The translations under genes and the position numbers were made by a program. A stretch of DNA of 40,171 bases. Source: Tindallia sp. GTDB taxonomy: Bacteria > Bacillota > Clostridia > Peptostreptococcales > Tindalliaceae. The notes under the pieces were generated by a model. It did no database searches and was not told the origin of the DNA. It worked only from the letters and a program-made list of their open reading frames with translations. Position 1 is the stretch's first letter; every line of letters begins with the position of its first letter. This document shows, piece by piece, positions 35,662-36,388 of this stretch. The DNA lies in NCBI GenBank assembly GCA_007134225.1, contig SLLE01000094.1, positions 1 to 40,171 of the forward strand, read 5' to 3'.

Positions 35662-36006
35662 ATGAAAGTAAATGCAGACTGCTTTAAGGCTCTTGGAGAT
35701 GATACGCGTCTTAAAATTCTAATGATGCTTTCAGATGGCGAAAAATGTGCCTGCGATATCCAGGAAAACTTCCAACTTAAGCAGCCTACTATTTCGCATC
35801 ATATGAAAATATTACAGCAGGCAGAGTTGGTTCTGGTGGAAAAAAGAGGCAAATGGATGTTTTATGCGCTAAACAATGATATGCTGAAAGACATGATTCG
35901 ATTTATTGATGAAGACCTGATCAATGTGGATCAATTTCCATACGTGCTGTCGGAACATACCTGTGACGGCGTTCGGGAGCCTAAAACGGATAAATCAGCT
36001 ATTTAA
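35662..36006 (+). CDS. arsR: ArsR-family metalloid-responsive repressor
   Basis: A 114-aa winged-helix repressor. Cys29-x-Cys31 in EKCACDI is at the site that binds As(III)/Sb(III) in classical ArsR, and the recognition helix is QPTISHHMKILQQAELV. The binding of metalloid should release it from DNA. No arsenite pump or arsenate reductase lies in the window; the next gene, 98 bases on, is the selenocysteine glutaredoxin. Metal specificity is inferred from the CxC only. Confidence 0.9.
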   Translation: MKVNADCFKALGDDTRLKILMMLSDGEKCACDIQENFQLKQPTISHHMKILQQAELVLVEKRGKWMFYALNNDMLKDMIRFIDEDLINVDQFPYVLSEHTCDGVREPKTDKSAI

Positions 36007-36104
36007 ATGTGCCGTTTTGTCGACGAAAAATTACTAATCGTGTTTGCAATCCTGCTTAATGGGTAATTAGATTATGAATTCATAAATAATGGGGAGGTTA
36101 TTTC

Positions 36105-36335
36105 ATGTCAAAAAAAGTAGTGCTTTTTTCATCAACCACGTGACCGCACTGTGCCACGGCTAAGGATTATTTAGCCCAAAAAGGGATTGAATTCGAAGAA
36201 AAAAATGTTCAGTCCGATGTAGCAGCAAGGAAAGAACTAATGGAAAAAGGAATCATGGCAGTTCCAGTCATTAAAGTGGACGATGAGATGGTTGTAGGTG
36301 TTGATAAAGAGAAACTGGACAGCCTGCTTGGATAA
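36105..36335 (+). CDS. Glutaredoxin-like selenoprotein (UGA = Sec13)
   Basis: A 76-aa glutaredoxin-like protein read through an in-frame TGA at 36141-36143. The protein starts [12 protein letters not shown], then Sec13-Pro-His-Cys16, so the UGA stands exactly at the first residue of the CPxC redox motif. The fold continues with the cis-proline segment [15 protein letters not shown] and ends at TAA. GGGGAGG is seven bases before the ATG. A hairpin GGCTAA/TTAGCC (36158-36176) lies where a bacterial SECIS is expected. Similar Sec-containing glutaredoxins are known in clostridia. A simple nonsense mutation is the alternative, but its position would be a coincidence. Confidence 0.9.
36158..36176 (+). 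promoter_or_regulatory. Candidate bacterial SECIS hairpin
   Basis: GGCTAA (36158-36163) pairs with TTAGCC (36171-36176) around a seven-base loop beginning GG. The loop is 21-27 bases after the UGA, in the range for bacterial SECIS elements, which carry a G early in the loop. It is inside the coding sequence. No covariation was checked. Confidence 0.7.
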
Positions 36336-36349
36336 TGAGTACTTTCATC

Positions 36350-36388
36350 AAAGCCTTCAGACAGCAATAAGCTGTCTGAAGGCTTTTT
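36350..36388 (+). terminator. Terminator after the selenoprotein gene
   Basis: A perfect 16-bp stem (36350-36365 with 36371-36386), loop AATAA, followed by a T run (TTTTTAT). It is 14 bases after the stop. Confidence 0.95.

Follow-up and report, generated by a model that had tools for sequence, protein, structure and literature searches.

The gene at 36105-36335 of the window (the whole stretch of 40,171 nucleotides that was analysed, which is contig C10 of the draft Tindallia genome G000) encodes, in our firm judgement, a functional selenoprotein glutaredoxin of the Clostridium oremlandii Grx1 type, into which selenocysteine (Sec) would be inserted at an in-frame UGA by way of SelB and a hairpin. 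The UGA at 36141-36143 is, from the sequence evidence set out below, almost certainly read as Sec at the catalytic site. The features of the gene are as follows.

36091 to 36097, plus strand: ribosome-binding site GGGGAGG, spaced 7 nt from the ATG, from reading of the sequence.
36105 to 36335, plus strand: predicted Sec-glutaredoxin gene (76 aa), translated with TGA as U; Pfam Glutaredoxin 3.7e-17, PDB 7c10 9e-30.
36141 to 36143, plus strand: UGA codon, predicted to specify selenocysteine, residue 13, the catalytic first position of UxxC; TGA or TGC/TGT in all 70 loci.
36150 to 36152, plus strand: resolving Cys16 (TGT) of the UPHC motif, from the sequence; conserved in all aligned homologues.
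36158 to 36176, plus strand: bSECIS-type hairpin GGCTAAGGATTATTTAGCC with 7 bp and the loop GATTA (or GGATTAT), at 21 nt from the UGA; the Sec genes L024 and L025 of the sister genus have the identical sequence.
36350 to 36386, plus strand: intrinsic-terminator-like hairpin at the transcript end, a 16-bp stem and then a T-rich tail.

Re-reading of the sequence placed the ATG at 36105-36107 and the stop TAA at 36333-36335 and found no further internal stop, so that the frame is open on both sides of the TGA as an earlier note on this DNA had claimed, and the ribosome-binding site is as well placed as that note had it. The product matched PF00462 with 62.7 bits against a Pfam cut-off of 22.9. 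Residue 13, the UGA, opens the UPHC redox motif and aligns with Cys in homologues, which upholds the claim that the TGA stands at the first Cys position of such a motif. The case confirms a UGA-interrupted gene of the kind that simple ORF calling splits.

Homologues were drawn from a named genome collection and from 297 genomes of the same order, and others were fetched by coordinates. Among 70 homologous loci codon 13 is TGA in 38 and TGC or TGT in the other 32, a ratio that is not to be taken as a frequency since certain genes entered the set twice and some loci were picked for their TGA. No stop was found at any other codon inside the gene in these 70 loci, the three TAA at position 1 lying before the true start. 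The alignment of Cys- and Sec-containing homologues, proposed earlier as a check, matched at exactly this codon. Within the same and the sister genus, TGA is found in the window gene, L024 and L025, and Cys in L022/L043, L044, L045 and L023/L046. Since three other genomes of the same genus have Cys at codon 13, the locus can do without Sec. On the protein tree Sec and Cys must have replaced one another 10 times, with well-supported branches forcing at least 6 of these changes, though resolution from the 77 columns is poor. The gene offers a clear example of Sec and Cys replacing each other repeatedly at one codon of a conserved locus, including exchange between species of one genus. A divergent Sec homologue, L091 of genome G059, has UPAC in place of UPHC and is without a hairpin in the usual register.

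The Cys codons of the nearest same-genus copies would also fit a TGA that arose as a nonsense mutation in a gene now decaying as a pseudogene. We consider this very improbable, since the frame carries no other lesion, TGA recurs at the identical codon, with a hairpin following, in loci from many families, and the part downstream of the TGA is under purifying selection, with dN (0.11 against L024) much below a saturated dS.

In the selenoprotein reading the hairpin beyond the UGA would serve as the bacterial SECIS (bSECIS). Its arms GGCTAAG and TTTAGCC (36158-36164 paired with 36170-36176) form 7 bp around the 5-nt loop GATTA, and with the closing G-U pair opened the loop becomes GGATTAT, at 21-27 nt past the UGA. 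This is the very GGCTAA/TTAGCC hairpin with a loop beginning GG that had been described before. Published rules for bSECIS elements specify a loop of 3-9 nt, a stem of 4-16 bp, a G in the first two loop positions, a distance of 16-37 nt from the UGA and a free energy of at most -7.5 kcal/mol (PMC13188914). The window hairpin has this geometry, since its loop of 5 nt begins with G, its stem has 7 bp and it lies 21 nt from the UGA, and its energy straddles the threshold, being -6.9 kcal/mol for the hairpin alone and -8.0 kcal/mol for the 30-nt fold. By itself it is only marginally unusual against synonymous recodings (P 0.06-0.08 under the codon usage of the window, 0.013 under bSECIS constraints), and the 60-nt fold was no better than shuffles (z -0.17).

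It is because of the comparative evidence that the hairpin is regarded as more than chance. Nine successive degenerate codons over the hairpin are unchanged against L024 where downstream dS overall is saturated (permutation P 0.02). When the best hairpin per gene was taken under the bSECIS rules, the 34 Sec genes had a median energy of -6.2 kcal/mol and the 30 Cys genes one of 0 (Mann-Whitney P 2.6e-11, nominal since the sequences are related), and a hairpin of this type is nearly universal in the Sec genes and weak or absent in most Cys genes. The stem centre lies in one register in most Sec genes, from which that of the window gene and its group is shifted by about 2 nt. In 24 Sec genes that share the common register, pairing holds in 91.7% of cells, compensatory changes on both sides occur at 3 of 8 pairs, and none of the 500 shuffles and none of the slid versions reached the covariation score; as these sequences are related and were chosen for their common register, the score is strong but is not a probability. 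The clearest covarying pair changes from C20-G36 to U20-A36, an Ala to Val codon change being matched by a synonymous change of a Ser codon. The SECIS covariation that the earlier note had wished to see is therefore present in the Sec homologues. An Rfam scan of the locus gave sub-threshold matches only, among them CsrC over the SECIS region, which was rejected as spurious. A few Cys genes retain a SECIS-like hairpin, the clearest being that of L065 in genome G073, CGAAAGAGTATCTTTCG, which is apparently the relic of a recent change from Sec to Cys.

The hairpin also bears on whether the TGA might be a sequencing or assembly error for TGC or TGT, a thought invited by a draft genome of 199 contigs and by a codon one base away from Cys. 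This is less likely still than a decaying gene, since independent sister-genus assemblies (L024, L025) share both the TGA and the identical 19-nt hairpin, and Cys orthologues in the same gene order are without that hairpin.

The genome (2.35 Mb, 96.5% complete) has the apparatus that Sec insertion at residue 13 would call for. The genes selD, selA, selB and tRNA-Sec are consecutive on a single contig, C143, with scores of 397 bits (cut-off 125), 599 bits (cut-off 268), 397 bits (cut-off 242) and 72 bits (cut-off 47), respectively, and the tRNA-Sec (selC) has the anticodon UCA. The prediction that selA, selB, selC and selD would be found in this genome thus came true, and of the two observations named in advance as speaking against a selenoprotein, an absence of sel genes and random stops elsewhere in the gene in relatives, neither was made, the sel genes being complete and the 70 loci clean. 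Among 30 genomes examined selA was found in 29, and the sole genome without it, G014, has Cys at the glutaredoxin codon. We propose that SelB carrying Sec-tRNA(Sec) would recognise the hairpin just past the UGA and insert Sec at residue 13. The selD gene (L018 34-1071 on C143) is itself a selenoprotein gene with an in-frame UGA at TQSAGUAAK, downstream of which lies a short G+C-rich hairpin, AGGACC-GGA-GGUCCU, with its loop starting 17 nt after the UGA. A genome-wide reassignment of UGA (Trp or Gly code) with no local recoding to Sec, to which the other in-frame TGAs of the genome (selD, msrA) might seem to point, can practically be dismissed, since those TGAs are classical Sec sites of known selenoproteins, TGA closes 8 of the 31 main window genes, with a further stop or a gene close behind, and the sel gene set is complete.

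Returning to the selenoprotein reading, the closest solved protein is PDB 7c10, with 45 of 76 residues identical (59%) and no gaps. Its most probable identity is Grx1 of Clostridium (Alkaliphilus) oremlandii, since 7c13 holds both an MsrA and a Grx, the latter with Ser at position 16; very probably 7c10, 7c12 and 7c13 are U13C forms of that protein. The selenoprotein glutaredoxin Grx1 of C. oremlandii OhILAs was reportedly the subject of Kim et al. 2011, Mol Microbiol 79:1194, as cited in PMC4479559 and PMC4333827. A mutant of C. oremlandii Grx1 is named U13C/C16S (PMC4479559), and the Sec13 and Cys16 that its mutants imply are shared by the window protein, which also falls in the same tree region and likewise has a Sec-MsrA in the same organism. 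Unlike C. oremlandii Grx1, the window gene belongs to a different genus, the comparison being one of protein sequences. The UXX-star selenoproteins (NCBIfam NF041212, NF041114) resemble the window protein in the glutaredoxin fold and in Sec at the catalytic position, but the window protein keeps the resolving Cys in its UPHC motif, and membership of that family was rejected with scores below the curated cut-offs (51 versus 66 bits and 31 versus 72). The novelty implied by the earlier note did not hold, since the bacterial selenoprotein families characterised by experiment already include Sec-glutaredoxin (PMC9312934, PMC13188914), a family of which the window protein is, by its sequence, an additional member.

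The selenoprotein MsrA of C. oremlandii has glutaredoxin, not thioredoxin, as its reductant, and a C-terminal helical region marks this enzyme, CoMsrA (PMC4479559). G000 encodes one MsrA, on contig C117 outside the window, whose gene has TGA in frame at the catalytic position (GLGUFWG) and a hairpin downstream of that TGA. It is best matched by the C. oremlandii MsrA structures and has the C-terminal helical region, and is a probable second selenoprotein of the genome. A search for GrdA gave no match, but as its controls gave none either it carries no information. The gene (L092, minus strand, about 1300-2100) has a possible lipoprotein signal (VVIMTGC) ahead and apparently ends in tandem TGA stops. 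The Sec catalytic site and helical region are those of the 1-Cys-type selenoprotein MsrA of C. oremlandii (PDB 4lwj, 4u66, 7c13), but in G000 the gene of this putative partner lies apart from grx. With glutaredoxin as the reductant of MsrA in C. oremlandii and a Sec-MsrA present in G000, the latter is likely to be a glutaredoxin client, and the Sec-glutaredoxin and Sec-MsrA set of C. oremlandii would be repeated in a second lineage. From the known glutaredoxin mechanism and C. oremlandii Grx1, the Sec13 selenolate would attack oxidised substrates and Cys16 would resolve the mixed selenenylsulfide; by analogy, the protein is likely to use Sec13 for reducing disulfides as well as oxidised Sec-MsrA, the probable main client.

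That Sec-glutaredoxin and Sec-MsrA are obligate partners was rejected on 48 genomes. A full-length MsrA match with one TGA was found in 12 of the 48, and the glutaredoxin there is about half Sec and half Cys. In the same-genus genomes with Cys-glutaredoxin an MsrA match carrying TGA in frame is likewise present, and Sec-glutaredoxin is therefore not required for Sec-MsrA. Neither gshA (PF04262; E. coli control positive) nor gshF (TIGR01435) was matched in the 96.5% complete draft, so that a glutathione cycle is not assured for the glutaredoxin. We would offer as speculation, and as rather unlikely, that the protein works in a cell seemingly without glutathione synthesis, recycled by another thiol or directly by a reductase, as a dedicated selenium relay to Sec-MsrA, possibly under an ArsR-type regulator.

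Such a regulator is the conserved upstream neighbour of grx.

35662 to 36006, plus strand: ArsR/SmtB-family regulator gene (NF033788 1.2e-28), in the same order in same- and sister-genus relatives.

The gene order pstB-phoU-arsR-grx-trpS is common to relatives of the same and the sister genus around both Sec and Cys orthologues, pstB being seen upstream where the fetched stretch reaches that far. A link of the regulator to redox gene control is possible. The regulator has a CAC motif.
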